Positions 3,155 through 40,189 of a stretch of DNA of 45,291 bases are shown here, in pieces. Position numbers and translations under genes: made by a program. The notes below the pieces were generated by a model. That model saw nothing but the letters and a program-made list of their open reading frames with translations. It was not told the DNA's origin and ran no database searches. The stretch is taken from NCBI GenBank assembly GCA_018064505.1, contig JAGHVC010000122.1, positions 1-45,291 of the forward strand, in the 5' to 3' direction. Each line of letters starts with the position of its first letter. Within the stretch, counting starts at the first letter, position 1. This stretch comes from Candidatus Minthosoma caballi (GTDB lineage: Bacteria > Bacteroidota > Bacteroidia > Bacteroidales > Bacteroidaceae).

Positions 3155-4309
3155 ATGGATATTGAACTGTTAATATACTTATTACTTCATGGTTTTGGTA
3201 TTGGCTATATGCTGATACTTGGATTGTACCTGCTGCTGACAAAGAAGAGTTTGTTTGACACGGCTGTGAAACCAAACTTTCTTTTGAGGCGTTCAGCAGG
3301 TGTCAATGTGCTCATGTGGGGAGGAACTTTTGTCACAGGCATGGTTGCATATTTCCTCGGTGGTAAGTACGATTATGATTTCCTTGGTTTGGATGCGCTC
3401 ATTGACTTGTTCCTTATTCCTGGCATAGGTACATTCTTGTTCTGCCTTGTTCAGGTGGGCAAGCCAGACATGAAGAAGGTTCTGTTGTCTGTCATTGTGC
3501 CCGTTGTGTTGCTGCTTTATTTTGTGATAACCCAGAGTGTTTGGGCAATTAGAATCTCTTCCGCATATTGGTTTGTTTATATTGTGTTAGTGGTGCTTTC
3601 GTTCGGAAGAAAGCAATTGCAATATAAGAAGAAGCTGAAGGAAAACTTCTCCGACTTACATCATAAGGAACTGAAATGGATCAATCAGTTAATTGTGTTC
3701 TTCCTTCTTTATGCTTCTCTCTATGCTGTGGGGCATTATTTTAAAATGCCATTATTGCTCAATCTGTCTTATGCAATCTGCCTGATAGCATGGACCTACA
3801 TCACATGGCATGTTGAGCATCAGGAGAAACTGGTGGATTTTTGGGAACCAAACGAGCGAAAATATTCTGTCGCTTCAAACTCAAGCCATGAGGATTTTGC
3901 CGACAAGTCTTTTGTTGATGGTAAAGAACAGAATAGTGCTGACCATGCTATTAATCAAGAATTATATGATAAGGTAGAGGCTCTGCTAGAAAAAGAATGC
4001 ATTGCAAATGGCTTGTATCTGCAAAATGATTTGTCTTTGCCTGTTCTTGCAGCGGCACTCGGCACTAACCGCACTTATCTGAGCCAATATTTCACCAGCA
4101 AAAATACGACTTTTTATAGCTACATTAATGGCCTTCGCATAGATCGTGCAGTAAGTATGATTCGTAACAAAGAAAAAGGTGTTACGATGGAAAATATCTA
4201 CACTCAATGCGGTTTCAATAGCTCAAACACTTTCAGAAGGGCATTCATTGATAAGATGGGATGCACTCCTGCTTTGTATGTGGCAAAGATGCTTGGCAAG
4301 AAGGACTGA
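3155..4309 (+). CDS. Membrane-anchored AraC-family transcriptional regulator
   Basis: 384 residues. The N-terminal 210 or so contain about six to seven hydrophobic segments (for example 3-27, 50-68, 110-130, 135-150, 175-205), followed by a charged linker and a C-terminal AraC/XylS double helix-turn-helix from about 285 to 380. The second HTH contains the family signature CGFNSSNTFRRAF. Membrane-bound AraC proteins of this layout are common in Bacteroidota and probably sense a signal at the membrane; the ligand is unknown. It starts 21 bases after the M3 peptidase and ends 7 bases from the convergent DUF4861 gene. The target genes cannot be told from sequence. Confidence 0.85.
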   Translation: MDIELLIYLLLHGFGIGYMLILGLYLLLTKKSLFDTAVKPNFLLRRSAGVNVLMWGGTFVTGMVAYFLGGKYDYDFLGLDALIDLFLIPGIGTFLFCLVQVGKPDMKKVLLSVIVPVVLLLYFVITQSVWAIRISSAYWFVYIVLVVLSFGRKQLQYKKKLKENFSDLHHKELKWINQLIVFFLLYASLYAVGHYFKMPLLLNLSYAICLIAWTYITWHVEHQEKLVDFWEPNERKYSVASNSSHEDFADKSFVDGKEQNSADHAINQELYDKVEALLEKECIANGLYLQNDLSLPVLAAALGTNRTYLSQYFTSKNTTFYSYINGLRIDRAVSMIRNKEKGVTMENIYTQCGFNSSNTFRRAFIDKMGCTPALYVAKMLGKKD

Positions 4310-14136: not shown

Positions 14137-15990
14137 ATGAAACGAATATATAGCATATTAACAGCATTCACGCTCTTTGTGAGCATCTTCTCTTTGTCAG
14201 CATTTGCTGATGGAGTGACAATGAATGTGTCAGCCCCTTCCACAGTTGAAGCAGGTGGCAAATTCCGAGTGCAGTTTACAGTCAACACGCAGAATGTGTC
14301 AAACTTCGTAGCTCCAGATTTCAAGGGCTTTGAAGTTATATATGGACCTGCCACATCATCCCAGAGCAGTTTCCAGATGATAAATGGTCGCACAAGCCAA
14401 AGCAGCAGTATTATCTATACTTATGTGTTGCTTAGCGATGTGCCAGGCACATACACCATTGGCAGTGCCAGCGTGCAAGTTGATGGTAAGGCAGTTAAGT
14501 CTCGCCCTACAACCGTCAAGGTGCTTTCTGCAGGCTCAGGCAATAATTCTGGTAGCAGTAGTCGCAGTTCTGGCTCAGCAAGCGGCCGTCAGACTACAGA
14601 GCCTCTAACAACAGGCACAGGAATCACAACAAAGGATTTGTTCATGACAGCTACTGCAAGTCGCACCAATGTGCATGAGCAGGAAGCAATTCTCCTTACA
14701 TATAAAATATATACGCTTGTTGACCTCACAGAGCTTGATGGCAAATTGCCTACTCTCGATGGATTCCAGATACAGGAGATACCTCTTCCACGCACAAAGG
14801 AATTCAGCATTGAGCAGCACAATGGCCGCAACTATCGCACAGTTGTGTGGAGCCAATATCTCCTCTTCCCTCAGAAATCAGGAAACCTCACAATTCCTTC
14901 CATCACATACGAAGGCGTTGTGGTGACACGCAATCGCAATATTGACCCTATCGAAGCTTTCTTCAACGGACAGAGCGGTATGATGGAGCTTAAGAAGAAG
15001 ATAACAACTCCTGCTCTCACCATCAAGGTTTCACCGCTCCCTGCTAAACCCGACAATTTCTCAGGAGCTGTGGGCAAGTTTAGCATCACATCAAACATTA
15101 GTTCTAAGGAAGTTGATGCAAATGAGGCTGTTACCCTCAAGCTCTGCGTGAAGGGCAGTGGCAACATGAAGCTCATTGCAACTCCAAATGTGGATTTCCC
15201 TAAAGACTTCGAAACCTACGATGCTAAAGTCAATGACAAGTTTGAACTCACTCGTTCAGGACTTGCAGGATCAAAAGAATTTGAATATCTTGCAGTGCCT
15301 CGCCATCCAGGAGAGTACACCATTCCAGCTGTGAAGTTCGTTTATTTTGACACAGATTCACGCTCTTATAAGACACTCACTACTGAGCCATACACTATAA
15401 AAGTAAATAAGAGCAAGGGTGGCAGCTCTCAGAGTGTTTCAAACTATAGTGGGCAGCAGCGCGATGTGCAGCAGCTGAATCAAGACATTCGCTTCATCAA
15501 GAAGGGCGATGCCGAGTTGCATCAGCCAGGCGAGACATTCTTTGGCACATGGAAGTATGGTTTAGGCTATCTCATTCCGCTCCTTCTCTTCCTTGTTCTT
15601 GCAATTCTCGGTCGCAAGCAGATGAAAGCAAATGCCAATGTAGCCCTTTCTCGTGGAAAGAAAGCCAATAAGGTTGCTCTCAAGCGAATGAAGACAGCAA
15701 AGAAGTTGTTGGATGCCCGCGACCAAGGCAAGTTCTACGACGAGGTGCTTCGTGCGCTCTGGGGCTATGCAGCTGATAAGCTCAACCTTCCTCAAGAGAG
15801 TCTGAACAAAGACAATGTGAAAGAACAATTGCTCAGTCGTGGTGCAAGCCAAGAGCGTGTAGATCAGCTTATTAAAGTGCAGAATGACTGCGAGTTTGCT
15901 CGCTATGCACCAGGCGATCCAAATGAGACGATGGAAAATATCTATAACAATGCCATCCAGGCAATAACACAGATGGAGGACGAACTATGA
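14137..15990 (+). CDS. batD: BatD: large extracytoplasmic protein with one TM
   Basis: 617 residues. A signal peptide (to about 25) is followed by several beta-sandwich modules, with typical BatD phrases such as GGKFRVQFTVNTQNV, VYKIYT-like LLTYKIYTLVDLTEL and EQHNGRNYRTVVWSQYLL. A Ser/Gly/Arg-rich linker lies at about 130-155. A TM helix at about 473-490 leads to a cytoplasmic helical tail of some 125 residues. Its last four bases overlap the BatE start (ATGA). The function of BatD is unknown; the layout suggests a surface-facing partner of the VWA complex. Confidence 0.9.
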   Translation: MKRIYSILTAFTLFVSIFSLSAFADGVTMNVSAPSTVEAGGKFRVQFTVNTQNVSNFVAPDFKGFEVIYGPATSSQSSFQMINGRTSQSSSIIYTYVLLSDVPGTYTIGSASVQVDGKAVKSRPTTVKVLSAGSGNNSGSSSRSSGSASGRQTTEPLTTGTGITTKDLFMTATASRTNVHEQEAILLTYKIYTLVDLTELDGKLPTLDGFQIQEIPLPRTKEFSIEQHNGRNYRTVVWSQYLLFPQKSGNLTIPSITYEGVVVTRNRNIDPIEAFFNGQSGMMELKKKITTPALTIKVSPLPAKPDNFSGAVGKFSITSNISSKEVDANEAVTLKLCVKGSGNMKLIATPNVDFPKDFETYDAKVNDKFELTRSGLAGSKEFEYLAVPRHPGEYTIPAVKFVYFDTDSRSYKTLTTEPYTIKVNKSKGGSSQSVSNYSGQQRDVQQLNQDIRFIKKGDAELHQPGETFFGTWKYGLGYLIPLLLFLVLAILGRKQMKANANVALSRGKKANKVALKRMKTAKKLLDARDQGKFYDEVLRALWGYAADKLNLPQESLNKDNVKEQLLSRGASQERVDQLIKVQNDCEFARYAPGDPNETMENIYNNAIQAITQMEDEL

Positions 15991-16736
15991 TGAAGAAGAT
16001 TTTGTTCACAGCATTCCTTATTCTGGTTTCTGTAGCATCCTTTGCCATCAGCAAGGTTGAGGCAGATGCACTATACGAAAAAGAAAACTATTCAGAAGCG
16101 GCTCAGGCTTACGAGTCTATCCTTCAGAATGAAGGAGTTGCTGCCGAAGTATATTATAATCTTGGCAACTGCTACTATAAGATGGATGAGATGCCACGCG
16201 CAATTCTCAACTACGAGCGAGCTCTTCAGCTCAATCCTGGCGATGGCGATATCCGTGCCAACCTCGCCCTTGCACGCGGAAAGACTGTAGATAAGGTGGT
16301 GCCTCCATCAGAGATGTTCTTTGTCACTTGGTGGCGCAACATGACCAATTGCATGAGCCTCGATTCTTGGAGTAAAATAGGCATCAGCAGTTTCATACTC
16401 CTGCTTTGCGGCTTGGCCATGTATATGTTTCTTACTAAGCTCACAATCCGTAAGATAGGATTCTATGGAGCGATGGCGATGCTCGTTGTCACTATCATTG
16501 CAAACCTCGCAGCACTCAGCCAGTACCTTGGTTTCAAATATCGTAATGCAGCAGTGGTCATAGCCCCTTCAGTCACCGTGAAGAGTTCTCCAAGTGCTAC
16601 AAGTACCGACCTTTTCCTAATCCACGAAGGCTCAAAGGTGGAAATCCTCGATTCGTCCATGAAAGAGTGGATAGAAGTGAAGTTTGAGGAAGGAAAGCAG
16701 GGATGGGTAGAAGTAGAAACTGTAGAAGTGATTTGA
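15987..16736 (+). CDS. batE: BatE: TPR and SH3-like membrane protein
   Basis: 249 residues: signal peptide (to about 20), TPR motifs at about 22-95 (YYNLGNCYYKMDEMPRAILN), two TM helices at about 128-148 and 158-178, and a bacterial SH3-like domain from about 187 (VKSSPSATSTDLFLIHEGSKV, ending GWVEVETVEVI). This order is typical of BatE. The SH3-like module may bind cell wall or a partner protein. It is the last gene of the operon; a 57-base gap separates it from the PAP2 gene, with no clear terminator, so read-through is possible. Confidence 0.9.
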   Translation: MMKKILFTAFLILVSVASFAISKVEADALYEKENYSEAAQAYESILQNEGVAAEVYYNLGNCYYKMDEMPRAILNYERALQLNPGDGDIRANLALARGKTVDKVVPPSEMFFVTWWRNMTNCMSLDSWSKIGISSFILLLCGLAMYMFLTKLTIRKIGFYGAMAMLVVTIIANLAALSQYLGFKYRNAAVVIAPSVTVKSSPSATSTDLFLIHEGSKVEILDSSMKEWIEVKFEEGKQGWVEVETVEVI

Positions 16737-16793
16737 CAAAGATTCGAATAAACGATAGATATTCAAAACAACTAAACGCATAACTACCTCACA

Positions 16794-17474
16794 ATGCTTG
16801 AACTTGATCAGCAATTGACCTTAGCCCTCAATGGCAGCGATAGCCTGTTTTGGGACAATGTGATGTACACAGTCACCGACACCTTCTCGTGGACTGCAGT
16901 CATCATTGCATTGCTCATAATAATATTCAAGAACAACAGCTTGAAAGAAGCCATAATGGTCTATGTAGCAATAGCATTGCTCATTTTCATTGCCGACCGC
17001 ATTTGCTCAGGTCTTGTTAAGCCGCTAGTTGAGCGTTGGCGTCCCACTCAGGACCCTCAGATAATGTATCTTATAGATGTTGTGCGTGGCTATCGTGGAG
17101 GGCGATTCGGCTTCTTCTCAGGTCATGCTTGCAACACATTCTGCATGGCCACATTCCTTTCATTGCTTTTCAGAAGCCCCAAGGTCACTCTTACCCTTTT
17201 CTTTTGGTGCATCACCACCACATTCACCCGCCTCTATTTAGGCGTTCACTACCTTGGTGATGTAACCGTAGGTCTGCTTGTAGGCATCACCCTTGGCACA
17301 TTATTCTATATCGGCATGGAGAAAGTGCATTCTCGCATAGGTGCCAAGCGCCTCATCTCAGAGCAGTTCACTCCTACAGGCTATCTGCGTGGTGACATGG
17401 ACACATTCATGACAATCGTCTTCTTTAACTACATTTGCGTTGTCATTTTCGCCATGACACTCGGCATAGGATAA
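16794..17474 (+). CDS. PAP2-family membrane phosphatase
   Basis: 226 residues with about six TM helices. The three phosphatase motifs are complete: K76-x6-R83-P84 (KPLVERWRP), S109-G-H111 (FFSGHACNTF) and R146-x5-H152-x3-D156 (RLYLGVHYLGD). Such enzymes remove phosphate from phosphatidic acid or undecaprenyl pyrophosphate on the outer face of the inner membrane; which one cannot be told here. The gene's last 32 bases overlap the 3' end of tilS on the opposite strand. Confidence 0.88.
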   Translation: MLELDQQLTLALNGSDSLFWDNVMYTVTDTFSWTAVIIALLIIIFKNNSLKEAIMVYVAIALLIFIADRICSGLVKPLVERWRPTQDPQIMYLIDVVRGYRGGRFGFFSGHACNTFCMATFLSLLFRSPKVTLTLFFWCITTTFTRLYLGVHYLGDVTVGLLVGITLGTLFYIGMEKVHSRIGAKRLISEQFTPTGYLRGDMDTFMTIVFFNYICVVIFAMTLGIG

Positions 17475-18738
17475 CTCTCTTTGTCCCATTGTCCACCCTG
17501 TACAGTTCCGAGCTTCTTTTGCCCACCACCCATGCAATCTCATCTCCGTCGCAAAGCAAGGGCTGGCACTCTTTCTCAAATCGGTTCATCTTCAAGTCCG
17601 TCAGGAAATCGCTCAGCAGTTTTCTTCTCCCTTTCATGCCGAAAGGAGCAAAGTCGTCGCCATCTTTCGGCAGTCGGATAGTCAATTCACCTCTCACTTT
17701 GTCTGAATCCAGATAAGCATACTGCGCATCCTTCAGTATAGTCACATCTCCTATCCCAACAGTATTCATTTCTATTTCAGGCATAGCCATTCTCTCTGGC
17801 TCAATCACAAAAGCATCACGATCAATCAGCAGCCTTCGCCCGCCATTGCCAGCAAACATCCTTCCGGTCTCATTCTGTTCCCTAAGCATGTTCTGCATCT
17901 GAGACCTGTTGAATCCCAATGGCGACAGCACTTCATGCAGCACCGAGATAGGGGAGGGCGCACTCGTCAGCTTATCTTTATCAATCCTAATGCATCCCAT
18001 TTCGTCTCTCTGCACGCATTGTTCCATTGTGCATTTCATCGCAGATTCATACACTTTTCTCACCTCGTTCAGGTTTTCAATCGTAGTAGCTATGTTAGCA
18101 GCAGCGCCGCTATTGATAGCTTCAAGCACAGGCATCACATCAAGCCTTATCTTGTTTCTGCTATACTCATCCTCGAGGTTGGTATGGTCAGTCACCCAGT
18201 CTTGCCCGATGCTCTCAAGCCACTCAATCACTTCGTCTCTCTGCACGCACAGCAGCGGTCTCACCACATTCCCGTTTCGTGGCTGAATGCCGCATGCACC
18301 GGCAATTCCCGTGCCTCTTACAATGTTCAGCAGCAGAGTTTCCGCATTGTCATCTTTATGGTGGCCCACAGCAATAGCTTCACATCCGTTCTCGCTCATC
18401 ATCCTGTCAAAGAAATCATACCTCAGCTCCCTGGCAGCCATTTCTATGCTCATCCCGTGTGCCTTAGCCCAGGCCTCTGTGTCGAAGTCTGTTTTCACGA
18501 GTTTCACTCCCATTGCCTCGCACAGATTTTCAGCAAACCTCTCATCCCTCATGCTCTCTTCGCCTCTCAGGTGAAAATTGCAGTGCACAGCCACTACGCC
18601 ATATCCCAATTCGTTCAGCACCCTCATCAGGCACACCGAATCTGGGCCTCCGCTTAGTCCCACAACCACGCGTCCCCTTGCCGTCAGCAAGTGCTTTTCG
18701 CGAATGAAACTCTCTATTTTATGCAGAATCTTATCCAT
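17443..18738 (-). CDS. tilS: TilS: tRNA(Ile)-lysidine synthetase
   Basis: 431 residues. TilS joins lysine to C34 of tRNA-Ile(CAU) so that it reads AUA. The PP-loop SGGPDS at 29-34 binds ATP. The conserved HCNFHLRGEESMRDE and VGHHKDDNAETLLLNIVRG follow, and a C-terminal recognition domain ends near VVGKRSSELYRV. I chose the ATG at 18738 because it begins just before the PP-loop, and upstream codons cover the promoter and the tRNA-Cys gene. Transcription is divergent from tRNA-Cys. The 3' end overlaps the PAP2 gene tail to tail. Confidence 0.92.
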   Translation of the reverse strand: MDKILHKIESFIREKHLLTARGRVVVGLSGGPDSVCLMRVLNELGYGVVAVHCNFHLRGEESMRDERFAENLCEAMGVKLVKTDFDTEAWAKAHGMSIEMAARELRYDFFDRMMSENGCEAIAVGHHKDDNAETLLLNIVRGTGIAGACGIQPRNGNVVRPLLCVQRDEVIEWLESIGQDWVTDHTNLEDEYSRNKIRLDVMPVLEAINSGAAANIATTIENLNEVRKVYESAMKCTMEQCVQRDEMGCIRIDKDKLTSAPSPISVLHEVLSPLGFNRSQMQNMLREQNETGRMFAGNGGRRLLIDRDAFVIEPERMAMPEIEMNTVGIGDVTILKDAQYAYLDSDKVRGELTIRLPKDGDDFAPFGMKGRRKLLSDFLTDLKMNRFEKECQPLLCDGDEIAWVVGKRSSELYRVDNGTKRVILCRVSWRK

Positions 18739-18747
18739 AATCGTATG

Positions 18748-18782
18748 CAAAATTACTCTTTTCTCACGAATAAAACTACAAA
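18748..18782 (-). promoter_or_regulatory. tilS promoter
   Basis: On the minus strand, TTTG (18782-18779) and TAATTTTG (18755-18748) are separated by 23 bases, slightly longer than ideal. The box ends nine bases before the ATG, leaving a leader of only a few bases. Confidence 0.5.
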
Positions 18783-18816
18783 AAAACACTCTACAATAAA
18801 AAAACTCGCCAAAATC

Positions 18817-18847
18817 TTTGCCAGTTATGCAAAATGTACTAACTTTG
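18817..18847 (+). promoter_or_regulatory. tRNA-Cys promoter
   Basis: TTTG (18817-18820), 19-base spacer, TAACTTTG (18840-18847): a textbook Bacteroidota promoter 20 bases before the tRNA. Confidence 0.85.
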
Positions 18848-18867
18848 CACTCGCAAAACAAAAACAT

Positions 18868-18939
18868 GGTGCGTTGGATGAGAGGCTTAGTCAACGGTCT
18901 GCAAAACCGTGTACACCCGTTCGAATCGGGTACGCACCT
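18868..18939 (+). tRNA. tRNA-Cys (anticodon GCA)
   Basis: Acceptor GGTGCGT pairs with ACGCACC (18932-18938). The discriminator is T, as expected for Cys. The anticodon stem ACGGT/ACCGT encloses loop CTGCAAA with anticodon GCA, and the T-arm is CCCGTTCGAATCGGG. The 3' CCA is not encoded. A promoter precedes it and a strong terminator follows. Confidence 0.96.
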
Positions 18940-18943
18940 CTTC

Positions 18944-18981
18944 AAGAGCTGAGATTCTAATGAGTCTCAGCTCTTTTTTTT
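18944..18981 (+). terminator. Rho-independent terminator of tRNA-Cys
   Basis: Stem AAGAGCTGAGA (18944-18954) pairs perfectly with TCTCAGCTCTT (18965-18975), followed by an unbroken T-run to 18981. Confidence 0.9.
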
Positions 18982-19081
18982 ACATGATTAGCGTACATGC
19001 TGCGTCAGAAGCATGCGGAATTTAGTGGATATAATACTTTTCTGGTTTTGCGTTAGTTTGCCACTAAATTGGCACAGAACC

Positions 19082-19495
19082 TTCTTTACAGTTGACATGC
19101 CTATGTTGAAAATGAGACGAAATGAAAAACACTATTCACTCTTCATCAATATGGTCGAACATGCTGATATTCATCTCTTTAGATGGATGAAGAGTGGATG
19201 AAGAGTGGAAAGGCGCTCTTCATTCATCCAATGGTTTGTCTTTCAAACGCTTAGGCTCAAATGATGAAGAGTGAAGAGTTTTTGAGTGAATTCATTTTTG
19301 CTACGAATGCGAGCGTGTGATACTTGTGTTCATAAGTGTCTAAATACAACCTTCAACTATTCAGAAAATATGCTTTCACTGAATACAGTTATTCGCTTCT
19401 TGTGAATACCGTTAGTCAAGCCGTGAGAATAAAAATATTCACACCCTGTGAATAAAAGTATTCGCGTAGCGTGAATAAATAGGGTGTAGTCAACC
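19082..19495 (+). repeat. Dispersed intergenic composite element, copy A
   Basis: This stretch of the 655-base gap between tRNA-Cys and glycerate kinase aligns along its length with 39662-40087 (copy B), same orientation, with scattered substitutions and small indels. In order it holds: ACATGCCTATG; a 22-codon ORF (19122-19190); a left arm AAAAACACTATTCACTC (from 19126) pairing with GAGTGAAGAGTTTTT (19269-19283); an inner hairpin of GATGAAGAGTG repeats (19185-19207) with CGCTCTTCAT (19214-19223); a short ORF beginning MMKSEEFLSEF (19261-19320); and the 23-base periodic array. No protein gene is convincing. The remaining gap, 18982-19081, shows nothing clear. Confidence 0.8.
19381..19495. repeat. 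23-base periodic palindromic array in copy A
   Basis: GAATA occurs at 19381, 19404, 19427, 19450 and 19473, exactly every 23 bases. Nine bases after the start of each of the first four lies TATTC (19390, 19436, 19459) or TAGTC (19413). Adjacent units therefore form small hairpins of the form TATTCRC-N5-GTGAATA. Confidence 0.85.
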
Positions 19496-19599
19496 GCACA
19501 TTAAGACTGTTTTGGTTCTCAATGTGGTAAGTGCTGGGTAAAAGAAAAAATAGAAAAAGGGAATTTTCTTTGCTTTCATTGCAGATTATTATGCTTTTC

Positions 19600-19631
19600 T
19601 TTGTTCATTTTCCGAAAACTCTGTATCTTTG
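19600..19631 (+). promoter_or_regulatory. Glycerate kinase promoter
   Basis: TTTG (19600-19603), 20-base spacer, TATCTTTG (19624-19631). Only five bases separate the box from the ATG at 19637, so the mRNA is probably leaderless or nearly so. Confidence 0.75.
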
Positions 19632-19636
19632 TATGT

Positions 19637-20725
19637 ATGAGAGTCATTCTAGCATTTGATTCGTTCAAGGGCTGCATCAGTGCCGAAGATGCATGTGATG
19701 CCGCTGCGCATGCCGTTAGGAGCGTTCTCCCTCATGCTGATGTGGTACAGTTGCCGCTGAGTGATGGTGGAGAGGGCCTTGTGGAGTGCGTGGCAAGAAT
19801 GCTGCCCGTGTCGCTCATCACTATTCCTGTGCATGGACCGCTTCACGATGAAGTGTCTGCCACTTACGCAATCTCGGCAGATGGCTCAACTGCCTACATG
19901 GAGATGGCTGCTGCCAGTGGGCTGCCTCTCGTGCCAGCTGACAAGCGAAATCCTTTGCTCACGACGACTTATGGGGTGGGGGATATGATTGCTGATGCTG
20001 CCGCTCGCCATTGCCGCCACATAGTGATGGGGATTGGTGGCAGTGCCACATGCGATGGCGGTCAGGGCATGTTGCAGAGTTTGGCTGATCATGGCTACGC
20101 AATGCCTGCTGACCCTTCTTCGTCGCCTCTGCCCTCGGTAGTAGTGGCTTGTGATGTGACTAATCCCTTGTATGGCGATAATGGAGCAGCAAGGATTTTT
20201 GCACCGCAGAAAGGGGCTACTCCAGAGCAAGTTGAGCAGCTGGAGCAGTCGTTGCGAGCTTTTGCACAGCGTACGGAAGAGCTTGGCATTGCCGAACGAA
20301 GGCTGGCACATAGTCCAGGCACAGGTGCTGCAGGAGGGTTGGGCTATGCTCTCGTTGCTTATCTTAATGCTGAGCTTTGTTCTGGCATAGATACGATGCT
20401 GAGTCTTGTAAGCTTCGACAAGCATGTGCAGGATGCTGACCTTGTCATCACGGGGGAAGGGCATTCTGATGAGCAGACTCTGATGGGCAAGGTGCCGCAT
20501 GGGGTGCTGACTCGTGCAGAAGCGGCAGGGGTGCCAGTGCATCTGCTTTCTGGCGGTGTTGATGATGCGGATCTGCTTATGCAAGCTGGTTTTGCCACCG
20601 CTGGCAGCATTAATGAAGGTGATGGCCGTCATTTGTGCGATCTGCTCATTCCTGAGACGGCAAAGAGTAATCTTGTGAAGAGTGTTATTAAGCTTTTGAA
20701 AAATATTACGAAAACCACCTACTAG
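19637..20725 (+). CDS. glxK: Glycerate kinase (GlxK/GarK family)
   Basis: 362 residues. This family phosphorylates D-glycerate, usually at position 2, feeding glyoxylate or sugar-acid breakdown into glycolysis. Visible marks are ILAFDSFKGCISAEDAC at the N-terminus, GIGGSATCDGGQGMLQ near residue 130, GTGAAGGLGYA near 230 and GEGHSDEQTLMGKVPHGV near 270. An in-frame ATG at 19601 is rejected since it lies in the -33 element. The gene stands alone after repeat copy A. GC content looks higher than in neighbouring genes (runs such as gctgatgctgccgctcgcca), possibly a sign of transfer, but this was judged by eye. Confidence 0.9.
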   Translation: MRVILAFDSFKGCISAEDACDAAAHAVRSVLPHADVVQLPLSDGGEGLVECVARMLPVSLITIPVHGPLHDEVSATYAISADGSTAYMEMAAASGLPLVPADKRNPLLTTTYGVGDMIADAAARHCRHIVMGIGGSATCDGGQGMLQSLADHGYAMPADPSSSPLPSVVVACDVTNPLYGDNGAARIFAPQKGATPEQVEQLEQSLRAFAQRTEELGIAERRLAHSPGTGAAGGLGYALVAYLNAELCSGIDTMLSLVSFDKHVQDADLVITGEGHSDEQTLMGKVPHGVLTRAEAAGVPVHLLSGGVDDADLLMQAGFATAGSINEGDGRHLCDLLIPETAKSNLVKSVIKLLKNITKTTY

Positions 20726-20763
20726 AACAATTCTAAAATAATTTTGATTACAAACTTACTTAG

Positions 20764-21633
20764 ATGAATATAAAGACTGTCTTTAACAATATAAGAGAGA
20801 AACAGCGTAAGGGACTGGAACATAACTACGACAAAGACCCAGGCGAGGCTGTGTTGTGCCATAATTGCGGAAGCATGGTGACGGGCAATTACTGCTCTGT
20901 GTGTGGACAATCGAGAGAAACGAAGCGATTGTCGCAGCGTCAAACATTTGTCCATATCCTTGCCACGCTCATCTTCGGCGACAATAGTTTCTTCACCACG
21001 GTGCGTGATTTGCTGTGGCGCCCGGGCTATGTGGCGCACGACTACATCACATGAAAGCGCGTGCCTTATTCCTCTCCGATGCCGTTGCTGGTTCATTTGG
21101 TCGCTGTGTTTGTCATTGTGGCGTTTTTCTTCAACTATGATGTGGATGGTGAGGAAGTTATGAACGAAAGCATTTACGAAACCGTGCATTCGGTGGTATT
21201 GACGAATACCATCACATTCATTGCTTCGTTCTTTAAGAACAAGGTATTCTTGGCATTGGCAGGAGCATTTCTCATGACGCCAGTGTTTAAGCTTATGTTC
21301 AGAAAGCAGACAATAACACGCTATGACGGCAGTAAGTCGCCGATGAACATGGCAGAACACTTCCATGCTCTTGTGTATCATTCGAGCCAGAGTGTTTTGC
21401 TGTCATTTTTCTTCATGGCAGTCGAGAGCCTTGTGCCAAACCCTTCCTCATTGGCATCCTTAGAGGGCGCAATAAGGGTACTGGTGTTTGTGTGGCTCTA
21501 TCGTCAGCTTTTTGAGATTTCATGGCTGCGAGCCTTCTTTCTCACTCTTGGCTCCCTCTTTCTTGCCATGGTTTGTATCATCTTAGCTAGTATTTTTGTA
21601 ATTAGCATTTTCAATGCTTTTGATGGAGCGTGA
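20764..21633 (+). pseudogene. DUF3667-like zinc-ribbon membrane protein, broken by an in-frame TGA
   Basis: One 290-codon frame is interrupted by TGA at 21052-21054. The first part (96 residues) has a zinc ribbon with C32, C35, C44 and C47 (CHNCG, YCSVCGQ) and FGDNSFFTTVRDLLWRPGYVAHDYIT. The second part continues in the same frame as KRVPYSSPMPLLVHL and holds about four to five TM helices. In DUF3667 proteins the break falls at a motif like YI-G-KR, so a single GGA to TGA change explains it. Other genes in the window use TGA as a normal stop, so recoding is unlikely. The downstream half could restart at GTG 21061. A possible -7 box, TAATTTTG, lies at 20739-20746. Confidence 0.75.
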
Positions 21634-21761
21634 GGAAAACGAGTAGCCCTTAACCGGTGTGAACATTGTTTTCCAATACCTAAAAACAGTACGATTTTTC
21701 AAACAATGAGGCGTATTCCCATCTTTTATTATGCTTTTTAGGTTGTTTCGAAAAATAGTAG

Positions 21762-21769
21762 TAACTTTG
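21762..21769 (+). promoter_or_regulatory. -7 promoter element of the LruC-type gene
   Basis: TAACTTTG, an exact consensus match 52 bases before the ATG. A TTG at 21743-21745 is only 16 bases upstream, shorter than usual for the -33 element. Confidence 0.6.
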
Positions 21770-21821
21770 TCGGTTGAAAAATGCGAAAATTTATTGATCG
21801 TGCATTGAACTATTAGTACTT

Positions 21822-23849
21822 ATGAAGATTACAAGTCGTTTCCTTTTGGGCGCTATCGCCCTACTATGGGAAGCTGCAGTGTTAGATTCATGCCAGGAGT
21901 ATACCCTTGACACCTCTTATCTCTACAACTATTCCCAGTACGAGAATTTCCGTGCCATCACTGTTAATAATCCATGTGATGACCATTATCTTTCCATCTA
22001 CTATGATCAGCCATTCTCCGAAGAGGGTGGTGTGCGTGCTAAGGAGTATCTGAGCGGCAAGGGCCCATTCACGATGAAGCTCAATGTGCCATCGCATGTG
22101 CAGCAGCTGTATGTGGTGGACAATGGTGTGCTGACGGTACATCCAGTGAGCGATCTGGAAGTGGGTGCGAAGACAAGGGGATTGGAATACACTCAAGGAG
22201 AGCTGGATGCGCTCTATGGCCATGTCACATCGACTTACTTGCCAACAGCACAATATAATGTTACGGGCGATGACCTCTTCAAGTGTACGGATATACGATT
22301 GGAACGAGATGGTGAACATGACGATCAGGATATTACTGCTTTCAACATCAGTTTGATTGACTTGATGAATAAGGCTTGGAACAGTAGTGGTACATATACT
22401 GGCGAAAAGAAAAACTTCATTGGCAATCTCTTTGCTTATGTCTATCCAAAGGAAAAGCAGCATCATCTGACTCTTGAGGATTGTATTTTCTTCGGTGCAA
22501 ACCCTGATGGTTATGCTTCTGGAACTAAGTTTAGTACTCACATGGAGGCTGTGCATAATGAAATGGGGCTTGCTGAAGCAAATAAGAAACTATGCCCACT
22601 GAAGCAGATATCAGCAGGGACATTGCGTGAGATGGGAAAGTATGTACACGACAACAAATCAAGTCTTACGGCAGATCTAATTAAAACCAAATATAATGTA
22701 TGGCCACTGCTCAATGCCCATGTGAAGAACAGACCACATATTGTTATCTCACTTCCTGTTGGTCATACTGATTTATTCCCGAATGGTTGCGAGGGTTACA
22801 ATCTTGGCTTTGTCTATTTGGGTGGTCAAAACTTGCGTTTTACTACTCCTGCATTGAATATCGGATTCCCTGGACCTGCAGACAATCAATATGGACAATA
22901 CGCAGAGAAAGGAAACTATCTCGGATACGAGCTTGATTATAAAAATGCATCGTATGACAATGACGAAAACGGTCTTCACTATGGCCCAAATGTCAACGAT
23001 GGCAAATTCGTTCTTGACCGCCACGTAGCCAACGGTTTTATCTGGCACTTCGATTATACTTATGATGGAGTAAAAAGAGAGTATGATGTGCTCGGTATGG
23101 ATAACCAATATCCATTCAACAAGCAAACTTTCTACGATGCAGACTATGCCGACTATAAGGTGCTTATCTCTACAGACCCAGAATATCTGAAGCCTGTGGA
23201 AGAGCTCCTTAAGCCTATTCATACACCATTTACGCTTGAAGAAGGTTATTACCTCTTTGAGGATACCTATCCAGATGAAGGGGATTATGATTATAATGAT
23301 GTCATCGTGCAGTATGAATGGCGTTACTATCCAGAGGACGATCAGCACAGGCAGCATGTCAACCGCGTGAACTGCACGCTCGAAGGCTATGCTTGTGCAT
23401 ATACTAACACTTTCGGCTTCATCAATACCCATGAGGATGCAGCACAAAGACATCATCCTCTTTTTACTGGTATTCATGGCAAAATGAATGTAACGCAGGA
23501 GCCTGATTTCATTGACCTCGAAGCTGATAATACGATTGATATTGAGTATGAGTTTGTGGGAGATAAGGACTACATCTATCCATATCTAAGTAATGAGCGA
23601 GGCGAAGTATATGAACAACGGACAGGTTCCTATAAAGGGCCTTTTGTTCTGAAGGTTCCTGAAGTCCTTGAGAAAGATCCAGATGTCCCTGATGCAAAAA
23701 AACACGAGTTCCGATGGACGATAGAAGGTGCTCGTTTGAAAGATGCTTACAAATCAATCACTAGTGCTGGCTGGTATCTACCAGGGAATATCAAAGATGG
23801 CAGCAAGCTAATGAAGCGTCACGAATTTACCGAAGGCCTTAGCGAGTAA
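21822..23849 (+). CDS. LruC/DUF4842-type surface protein, probable lipoprotein
   Basis: 675 residues. The N-terminus is hydrophobic and ends in VLDSC at C24; the Asp two residues before Cys departs from the usual lipobox, so lipidation is likely but not certain. The diagnostic LruC motif is FEDTYPDEGDYDYNDVIVQY (about 479-498), an Asp-rich, probably calcium-binding segment, and the region after it fits DUF4842. The middle (about 290-400) contains a beta-rich domain with GYNLGFVYLGGQNLRF. Such proteins are surface or matrix components of Bacteroidota with unknown function. It is monocistronic, with the tmRNA hairpin 30 bases downstream on the opposite strand. Confidence 0.75.
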   Translation: MKITSRFLLGAIALLWEAAVLDSCQEYTLDTSYLYNYSQYENFRAITVNNPCDDHYLSIYYDQPFSEEGGVRAKEYLSGKGPFTMKLNVPSHVQQLYVVDNGVLTVHPVSDLEVGAKTRGLEYTQGELDALYGHVTSTYLPTAQYNVTGDDLFKCTDIRLERDGEHDDQDITAFNISLIDLMNKAWNSSGTYTGEKKNFIGNLFAYVYPKEKQHHLTLEDCIFFGANPDGYASGTKFSTHMEAVHNEMGLAEANKKLCPLKQISAGTLREMGKYVHDNKSSLTADLIKTKYNVWPLLNAHVKNRPHIVISLPVGHTDLFPNGCEGYNLGFVYLGGQNLRFTTPALNIGFPGPADNQYGQYAEKGNYLGYELDYKNASYDNDENGLHYGPNVNDGKFVLDRHVANGFIWHFDYTYDGVKREYDVLGMDNQYPFNKQTFYDADYADYKVLISTDPEYLKPVEELLKPIHTPFTLEEGYYLFEDTYPDEGDYDYNDVIVQYEWRYYPEDDQHRQHVNRVNCTLEGYACAYTNTFGFINTHEDAAQRHHPLFTGIHGKMNVTQEPDFIDLEADNTIDIEYEFVGDKDYIYPYLSNERGEVYEQRTGSYKGPFVLKVPEVLEKDPDVPDAKKHEFRWTIEGARLKDAYKSITSAGWYLPGNIKDGSKLMKRHEFTEGLSE

Positions 23850-23879: not shown

Positions 23880-23926
23880 AATCGGAATTGTAAATCACTT
23901 GTTTTTAAGTATTTACAATTCCGATT
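23880..23926 (-). terminator. Long hairpin at the 3' end of ssrA
   Basis: AATCGGAATTGTAAAT (23880-23895) pairs perfectly with ATTTACAATTCCGATT (23911-23926) around a 15-base loop. Read on the minus strand it starts two bases after the tmRNA end and is followed by CTTCTTTTG, a weak T-rich tail. It may also stop the LruC transcript from the other side. Confidence 0.7.
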
Positions 23927-23928
23927 AG

Positions 23929-24324
23929 TGGAGCTGGAGGGGATTGAACCCTCGTCCAAACAAGGAAGCCATACGCTTTCTACATGCTTATCTCAGCCTT
24001 CGGTTTTCGAGCTGTGGCAAGACCTGAGCCACCAACCACAGCCTTATCCTCTAAAGCTTCACCTATGCATCGAGGCATGCATAGGCTATTCCCGATTTTA
24101 TAGCACCGCTGATCAGAACGCTTCAGGACGGATAGCTTTCTGGGCGATGTCTCGTTCCCTCGCCTAGCAAGGGAATAAAGCTAATCTACTATACTTCGAT
24201 TAAGCAGCGAGAGCGTAAGAAGTTTCGCCAATTAATTCTTTGCAGGCTATGATTTAAGTGAGGACCAGCGACTCACTGCATGCTTACGCACCACTTCATC
24301 TCGCTGTCAAATCCAGTCAGCCCC
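23929..24324 (-). ncRNA. ssrA: tmRNA (SsrA)
   Basis: 396 bases. Minus strand: the 5' end GGGGCTGACTGGATTTGACA pairs its acceptor GGGGCTG with CAGCTCC at the 3' end (one G-U), and the discriminator A at 23929 follows. The T-arm reads GGGTTCAATCCC-like, with CCA not encoded. The tag frame ends GGC GAA ACT TCT TAC GCT CTC GCT GCT TAA, giving GETSYALAA, close to tags of other Bacteroidales. tmRNA rescues stalled ribosomes and marks the unfinished protein for proteolysis. Confidence 0.95.
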
Positions 24325-39490: not shown

Positions 39491-39657
39491 AAACACTCAT
39501 CACTCATCACAAGCACCACTTAAGTACATGAATATTATAGCTTTAGATATGTGACGAGTGCTTTTTGACTCATCACCACTCATCACACACTCATCACACC
39601 AATAACACACAGAGTTTCAATCGACTAACATGCATCTGTGACGAGTGATGAGTGTTT
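39491..39657. repeat. Long inverted-repeat module next to copy B
   Basis: AAACACTCATCACTCATCAC (39491-39510) and GTGACGAGTGATGAGTGTTT (39638-39657) are inverted with 19 of 20 matches. Between them are an inner GTGACGAGTG (about 39551) and three CTCATCAC units (39569-39597). Together with copy B and the hairpin near 40200 it accounts for most of the 906-base gene-free stretch 39346-40251. Confidence 0.75.
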
Positions 39658-39661
39658 TTGA

Positions 39662-40087
39662 TTTTCTTACAGTCGCCATGCCTATGTGGAAATTGAGACG
39701 AAATGAAAAACACTCTTCACTCGTCATCAACAGAAGGAAACATACTGATATTCATTCCCTTAGAAGCATGAAGAGTGGATGAAGAGTGGATGAAGAGTGG
39801 AATAGCACTCTTCATCCACCCAACAAACTATCATTCAAACGATTAGGTAGCCATTATGAAGAGTGAAGAGTTTTTGAGTGAATTCATTTTTGCTGAGAAT
39901 GCGAGTGTGCAACACTTGTCCTCACAAACATTGAAAAAAGCTCTTCATCCATTCACATTATTCGCCTTCACTGAATACGGTTATTCGCTTCCTGTGAATA
40001 CTGTTAGTCAAGCCGTAAGAATGAGATTATTCATGCCCTGTGAATAAGGGTATTCACGCAGCGTGTATAAATAGGTTGTAGTCAATG
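39662..40087 (+). repeat. Dispersed intergenic composite element, copy B
   Basis: Homologous to 19082-19495. Features in order: ACAGTCGCCATGCCTATG; a 22-codon ORF (39703-39771) equal in length to that of copy A; outer arms AAAAACACTCTTCACTC (from 39706) and GAGTGAAGAGTTTTT (39861-39875); an inner perfect 14-bp hairpin, GTGGATGAAGAGTG (39786-39799) with CACTCTTCATCCAC (39806-39819), loop of six, preceded by further GATGAAGAGTG units; a 63-codon ORF starting MKSEEFLSEF (39856-40047) that is closed early in copy A; and the 23-base array with units at 39973, 39996, 40019, 40042 and 40065. From 40088 to 40189 nothing clear is seen. Confidence 0.8.
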
Positions 40088-40189
40088 TGTTTTCAACCGC
40101 TAAACTCGAAACCTTTTCGATAGCAAACACTTATTATTTGTTTTGGTAGTAACAAGGGGGTAGGGTGTAGTTTGATTTGTTATATAATA

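Follow-up and report, generated by a model that had tools for sequence, protein, structure and literature searches.

A dispersed, probably REPIN-like composite repeat in Candidatus Minthosoma caballi and its putative VapE-like helicase partner

Computational analysis of a 45,291-nucleotide contig of Candidatus Minthosoma caballi (the whole of this stretch is referred to below as the window) identified an intergenic composite repeat that we consider, with moderate confidence, to be a non-autonomous REPIN-like dispersed element, its mirror-symmetric dyad being a putative cis-acting site of a VapE-like helicase (PF05272+DUF3874) and its tandem array the second part of the non-coding region behind the helicase gene. 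This analysis established a fixed geometry of the dyad units, their link to the gene, the presence of half-sites behind sister genes, the co-occurrence of gene and units, and the existence of inverted half-site doublets. As judged from sequence comparison, the best reading is that the partner of the repeats would be a helicase of the replication-initiator type rather than a RAYT transposase.

Composite copies in the window and their distribution

The two window copies were previously noticed as homologous, identically oriented, gene-free stretches, and this was borne out by the alignment of 19082-19495 with 39667-40085 (79% identity, E 2.8e-100) and by their placement between larger ORFs (short chance ORFs being disregarded). 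The outer arms and the inner GATGAAGAGTG hairpin also match the earlier description, and no target-site duplication is seen at either copy, as the earlier note had stated. Three points had to be revised. Instead of only two copies, which the note had listed among the grounds for refutation, this genome (a draft of 3.2 Mb in 245 contigs) has 18 contigs with a total of 28 aligned pieces, and 20 exact dyad units by pattern; the start of copy 2 had been put too late, as an extra unit of the same design precedes it at 39495-39653; and its tail proved to be an array of 23-bp period with a possible, weakly matched terminal inverted motif behind it.

The copies are modular. In the 17 that were aligned, the order is unit A, linker 1, unit B, linker 2, module C and tail, with all three main modules (A, B and C) retained in six (B being shortened in two), A and C in three, A, linker 1 and C in four, and B and C without A in one (copy 1 of the window), while two copies are interrupted by contig ends and one has only part of B. 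Copy 1 (forward strand, as is copy 2) starts with linker 1 (19082..19130), which joins units A and B in most other copies, unit A being absent here. It continues with the 149-nt dyad unit B (19131..19279; repeat GATGAAGAGTG), whose arms at 19131-19145 (departing from the pattern by one base) and 19265-19279 enclose an inner array of two forward repeats and one reverse repeat, followed by linker 2 (19280..19352), module C (19353..19479) with its approximately 23-bp tandem units GTGAATAnnnTATTC, and a shortened right tail (19480..19495). Copy 2 begins with the 159-nt dyad unit A (39495..39653; repeat GATGAGTG/GACGAGTG), which lies outside the original finding, and proceeds via linker 1 (39654..39711) to a 160-nt dyad unit B (39712..39871; repeat GATGAAGAGTG, with three inner forward repeats), linker 2 (39872..39949), module C (39950..40073; 23-bp tandem units with spacings of 23, 23 and 23 from 39950 to 40059) and the right tail (40074..40110). 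The limits of linkers and tails in both copies are those of the 17-copy alignment. The tail of copy 2 contains, at 40094-40110, a weak match (3 mismatches) to a motif that certain other copies carry, in inverted form, at their left end. An inverted pair of motifs resembling this suspected terminal motif, 186 bp apart, is also present on another contig of this genome (G000:C162:21710-21895).

Several other features were noted around the elements. The stretch 19023-19081, ending GCCACTAAATTGGCACAGAACC, abuts copy 1, and a near copy of it precedes a unit of Candidatus Minthosoma equi (locus L043, G030:C33); the two may represent the end of another dispersed repeat. A further repeat, TTAGTTGACACATTC..TTAATACTGCTCAGGTTGACACTTGCC, lies 3' of units or arrays at three loci of this genome (L007, L017 and L018) and at one (L035) of Horse_feces98. 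A tRNA-Cys gene predicted by ARAGORN is located just 5' of copy 1 (18868-18940; it is missing from the gathering-score hits of the Rfam tRNA model), and a tmRNA gene (tag GETSYALAA) occupies 23926-24324 of the minus strand. The four Rfam gathering matches in the window are to tmRNA and tRNAs only, none of them within the elements.

Searching by the arm pattern yielded 20 exact units in this genome (G000), 7 in Candidatus Minthosoma equi (G030) and 20 in Horse_feces98 (JAKSLL; G033), as compared to 0 for a reversed control pattern. The occurrence is patchy: 3 of the 45 genomes of the genus and 6 of the 399 in the family sample carry units (20, 7, 10, 5, 6 and 2 exact units per genome in the latter six). 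The pattern was also found in 102 stretches of named genomes, mostly herbivore-gut Bacteroidales MAGs, which were retained as loci. Overlap with a called ORF was seen for 3 of the 101 unit hits, and 29 lie at the edge of a contig or locus; the remaining ones are in convergent (26), tandem (34) and divergent (9) intervals (vs. 55, 186 and 63 such intervals, respectively, in the same loci); this tilt toward convergent intervals is compatible with mere promoter avoidance. Neither a plasmid nor a phage origin found support, with no near match to window positions 15000-23000 among 72,556 plasmid records, no viral contig bearing the unit pattern, and a single weak viral VapE relative (34% identity over part of its length).

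Geometry of the dyad unit and its array

The dyad core of approximately 149 nt is mirror-symmetric and consists of two repeats, 43 nt, an inner array, 43 nt and two repeats. Units A and B follow this one plan in opposite orientation and with different repeats. The length is 149 nt in 56 of the 123 distinct units and changes mostly by one repeat (10-11 nt), and both spacers are 43 nt long in 61 of the 120 parsed units (41-43 nt on the left in 103 and on the right in 114, the left-spacer outliers being partly chance matches to a loose repeat pattern). A small number of short spacer motifs (TTAA, TGA) are retained in mirror order, the other spacer positions being unpaired, and the sequence of the repeats differs between species while the geometry stays constant. 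A second unit with a different repeat (ACTCTAC) adjoins the first at six further loci (L153, L158, L163, L171, L184 and L197), an arrangement like that of A and B in the window; thus, neighboring units often differ in their repeat.

This combination of kept repeat geometry and unpaired spacers suggests that the dyad units are double-stranded DNA sites read by a protein. The earlier note had proposed either a structured RNA or a mobile non-autonomous element. Both window copies do fold better than their shuffles (z -6.3 and -6.0, with 0 of 100 shuffles equal), a result that strong inverted repeats would give. The suggested covariation check on the arms revealed no pairing kept on one strand: at the two variable positions of the stem, one strand of the 35 non-redundant 149-nt units reads A.C in 16 and G.T in 16, so that roughly every second unit would have a mismatch whichever RNA strand is considered, and neither strand is kept as a perfect stem. 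It is the mobile option of that proposal that fits well, given many intergenic copies, a modular make-up, patchy occurrence and a candidate partner gene with the same site.

A tandem array of period 22 or 23 bp (22 bp in 48 cases, 23 bp in 13) is located within 400 bp of 61 of the 103 units vs. 3 of 116 control segments from the same loci, its sequence varying between clades.

The VapE-like helicase gene and its flanking sites

Clustering of 132 neighboring ORFs produced one notable group, six proteins of about 400 aa with a VapE-like domain and DUF3874 (PF05272+PF12990, with PF05272 present in 6/6). A profile of seven VapE-DUF3874 proteins was then used to scan the ORFs of all collected loci, and in all 11 distinct full-length genes of this subfamily (772-890 bits) the dyad begins 8-20 nt past the stop codon in a single orientation, while 0 of the 19 VapE-domain genes that score lower and have a usable flank are followed by a full unit. 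Most of the 11 genes were retrieved because of their unit, and therefore the independent subset matters. Among subfamily genes found by protein search, a unit is present in 3/3 from the genus and in 5/5 from the family sample (with two genomes shared). Only 3 of the 28 VapE-domain loci of the genus have it, exactly in the three unit-bearing genomes. In the family sample of 399 genomes, the subfamily (837-888 bits) occurs in five, all with the unit behind the gene, and five of the six unit-bearing genomes have the subfamily (Fisher p 7e-11, ignoring kinship, with the association resting on three genera). The sixth, Xylanibacter rarus (G340), lacks the subfamily and has a distant VapE of 710 aa (312 bits), in whose flank a pair of left repeats and a spacer precede an inner hairpin (in the order RR-spacer-F-R), tag and hairpin being those of the two dispersed units of this genome. 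In another genome (G251), a truncated VapE with approximately 72 matched residues and a unit 14 nt past the match looks like a decayed gene copy with its site.

Sister VapE genes carry repeats of other sequence on their 3' side, with two forward repeats, a reverse one, a spacer and another forward one in succession (by eye), with forward pairs spaced 10-12 and a reverse-to-forward distance of 46-49 at 7 of the 9 loci measured (60 at L278; the reverse repeat was not found at L277). An objective repeat score of at least 4 was reached behind 8 of 10 sister genes and 11 of 11 dyad genes as compared to 39 of 300 control flanks (p 5.7e-6 for sister genes vs. controls). The iterated site is absent behind VapE at L275, L272 and, by score, L277, and in a later set of ten VapE genes iterated inverted sites were seen in only three, the other seven scoring below 4; thus, the half-site trait is common but not general. 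The flank of a 705-aa VapE in G355 (L335) displays, immediately past the stop codon, three CATCTGTCA repeats and three inverted copies. The protein tree places the 11 dyad genes together with two half-site genes of the same tag (L299 and L300) in a fully supported clade within the half-site genes.

Two sister genomes have a half-site singlet behind the gene, and no fused dyad was found in either. In one of them (G120), two of two dispersed sites are inverted half-site doublets, one followed by an array resembling that behind the gene (all by eye), and no dispersed singlet was seen; the other (G154) has the singlet only. Taken together, these comparisons likely reflect a series from a singlet at the gene to dispersed inverted doublets and, further, to a fused dyad both at the gene and dispersed. 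Within genomes the match between a gene's unit and the dispersed units is only partial by tag; a gene's own unit is closest to a unit of another genome in 7 of the 10 genomes tested, and in 8 of 10 the mean likeness to the units of the gene's own genome is the higher one.

The VapE protein matches a solved VapE-like helicase structure (7pds, E 6.8e-11). Its own predicted structure was unusable (mean pLDDT 38, 10 similar sequences), and no transposase, nuclease or integrase domain was detected in the protein or among 27 neighboring ORFs scanned. At 11 distinct VapE loci a DUF6078-like ORF lies 3' of the site, and none was found in the collected loci without VapE; the rumen-clade VapE genes have no such ORF nearby. 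ParA, Rep3 and KilA-N occur near two VapE genes (a ParA-type ATPase and a Rep3-type initiator at 3181-4068 and 5489-7012 of L186, near one of them), and C-5 DNA methylase genes near two (667-1902 of L164 and 3112-4560 of L176). A role in defense was considered and set aside, with no PADLOC match for VapE or DUF6078 and one weakly matched neighbor. No NCBIfam family was returned for the 3 proteins queried, and DUF3874, DUF6078 and their Pfam numbers are named in no paper found within our coverage, which excluded subscription papers and preprints.

Alternative explanations, related systems and implications

The alternative that survives best, which we regard as unlikely, is that the site serves the VapE gene alone, in cis, as an origin, operator or terminator, its dispersed copies being chance recombination duplicates in whose spread the protein has no role. 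Relatives of VapE are replication proteins, next to whose genes iterated sites would be expected, the copies look mosaic, with modules lost and combined, and tandem slippage accounts for unit lengths of 149 vs. 159. Nevertheless, full dyads are found at 4-20 places per genome only alongside a VapE with a cognate site, and one of the two singlet-bearing sister genomes has dispersed doublets with no dispersed singlet seen there. An even smaller chance is assigned to the composites being ordinary MITEs of a DDE insertion sequence, with the unit behind VapE as one more chance insertion. The many intergenic copies, the arms serving as inverted repeats and TTCGAGCnGTGCGGTTG, a possible terminal motif that marks seven ends of elements in this genome, would suit it; yet insertion by chance agrees poorly with a constant position and orientation behind 11/11 subfamily genes at unrelated loci, and with half-sites of unrelated repeats at the same spot behind sister genes. 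Four copies (two pairs) of Horse_feces98, inspected by eye, showed no target-site duplication. A search for terminal inverted repeats of an autonomous IS gave a weak result (28 hits for the motif vs. 21 control hits), and no corresponding IS was identified. A structured RNA, with both modules transcribed and spread as a gene family, is highly improbable despite the very stable predicted folding, given wobble pairs without strand preference, unpaired spacers, the lack of Rfam matches in the elements, and repeats that change in sequence within a kept geometry.

The reading that we prefer, a REPIN-like element with a helicase partner, can be compared with several known systems. Transposases are the usual explanation for dispersed palindromes in bacteria. 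In BIME and BOX mosaic repeats, palindromic units are mixed with other motifs between genes, as in the present composite, and we know of no sequence relation between them and this element. The likeness to REPIN-RAYT systems extends to a gene with a repeat in its flank, dispersed intergenic inverted doublets and, in one lineage, a singlet at the gene. The differences are (i) the partner, a VapE-like helicase in place of the Y1/HUH enzyme that defines REPIN-RAYT pairs, and (ii) the units, which are here approximately 149 nt long with iterated repeats and fixed 43-nt spacers and are accompanied by a traveling 22/23-bp array. RAYT/Y1 transposases (PF01797) do not track the units among the 45 genus genomes, 14 of which have a match above cut-off, this genome having one below it. 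Passages of the REPIN-RAYT literature describe the doublet as the replicative unit and RAYT as acting in trans (PMC3116915).

A second comparison is with the self-loading helicases of SaPI and SCC elements (VapE, PriRep), which belong, by sequence, to the same helicase family. Origins of SaPIs are iterons beside rep, and the iterated sites described here are located directly behind the gene and co-diverge with it, as in initiator-iteron pairs (though 7 of the 10 further VapE genes score below 4). In contrast to SaPI and SCC, the site is dispersed over the chromosome and no satellite or phage context is seen. One passage, with reference to Qiao et al. 2022, deals with VapE-like helicases of SaPI5 (PMC10061031). 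BrickBuilt, a MITE of Porphyromonas gingivalis, shares, by its published description, the 23-nt tandem array with flanking modules, the long stem-loops and the intergenic spread (19 copies); the passages available on it report IS5-type ends GAGACCTTTGCA and mention neither an iterated dyad nor a partner gene (PMC4596501).

We infer that the VapE protein binds the repeats and that the units are mobile. Plasmid and satellite initiators bind and open DNA at iterons. By a comparable route, VapE would bind its iterated repeats and open the DNA there, local replication would begin, and the structure made by the helicase, together with host replication or repair, could lead to copying of two inverted half-sites with the DNA between and beside them, the copied half-sites and array then landing in new intergenic places. 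A broader proposal, which we put forward tentatively and hold to be somewhat less probable than its negation, is a chromosomal gene-plus-repeat class, in which an initiator-type helicase (VapE-DUF3874, often with DUF6078) recognizes its own iterated site, and fusion of inverted half-sites made this origin-like site a self-spreading, non-autonomous element driven by helicase-induced local replication, not by a transposase. No comparable system was found in the literature covered (subscription papers and preprints excluded), which suggests that a partnership of this kind between a gene and a repeat, spreading short DNA elements, is undescribed.

Overall, the gene linked to these dispersed palindromes encodes a member of the helicase family by which phage satellites initiate replication, and its site evolves by holding the spacing while swapping the repeat. 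If the proposed reading is true, it would mean that the REPIN way of life has been arrived at a second time, independently, provide a route to predicting which DNA is targeted by a large protein family that is so far unstudied, and offer an experimentally simple gene-site pair for asking whether local over-replication moves DNA.
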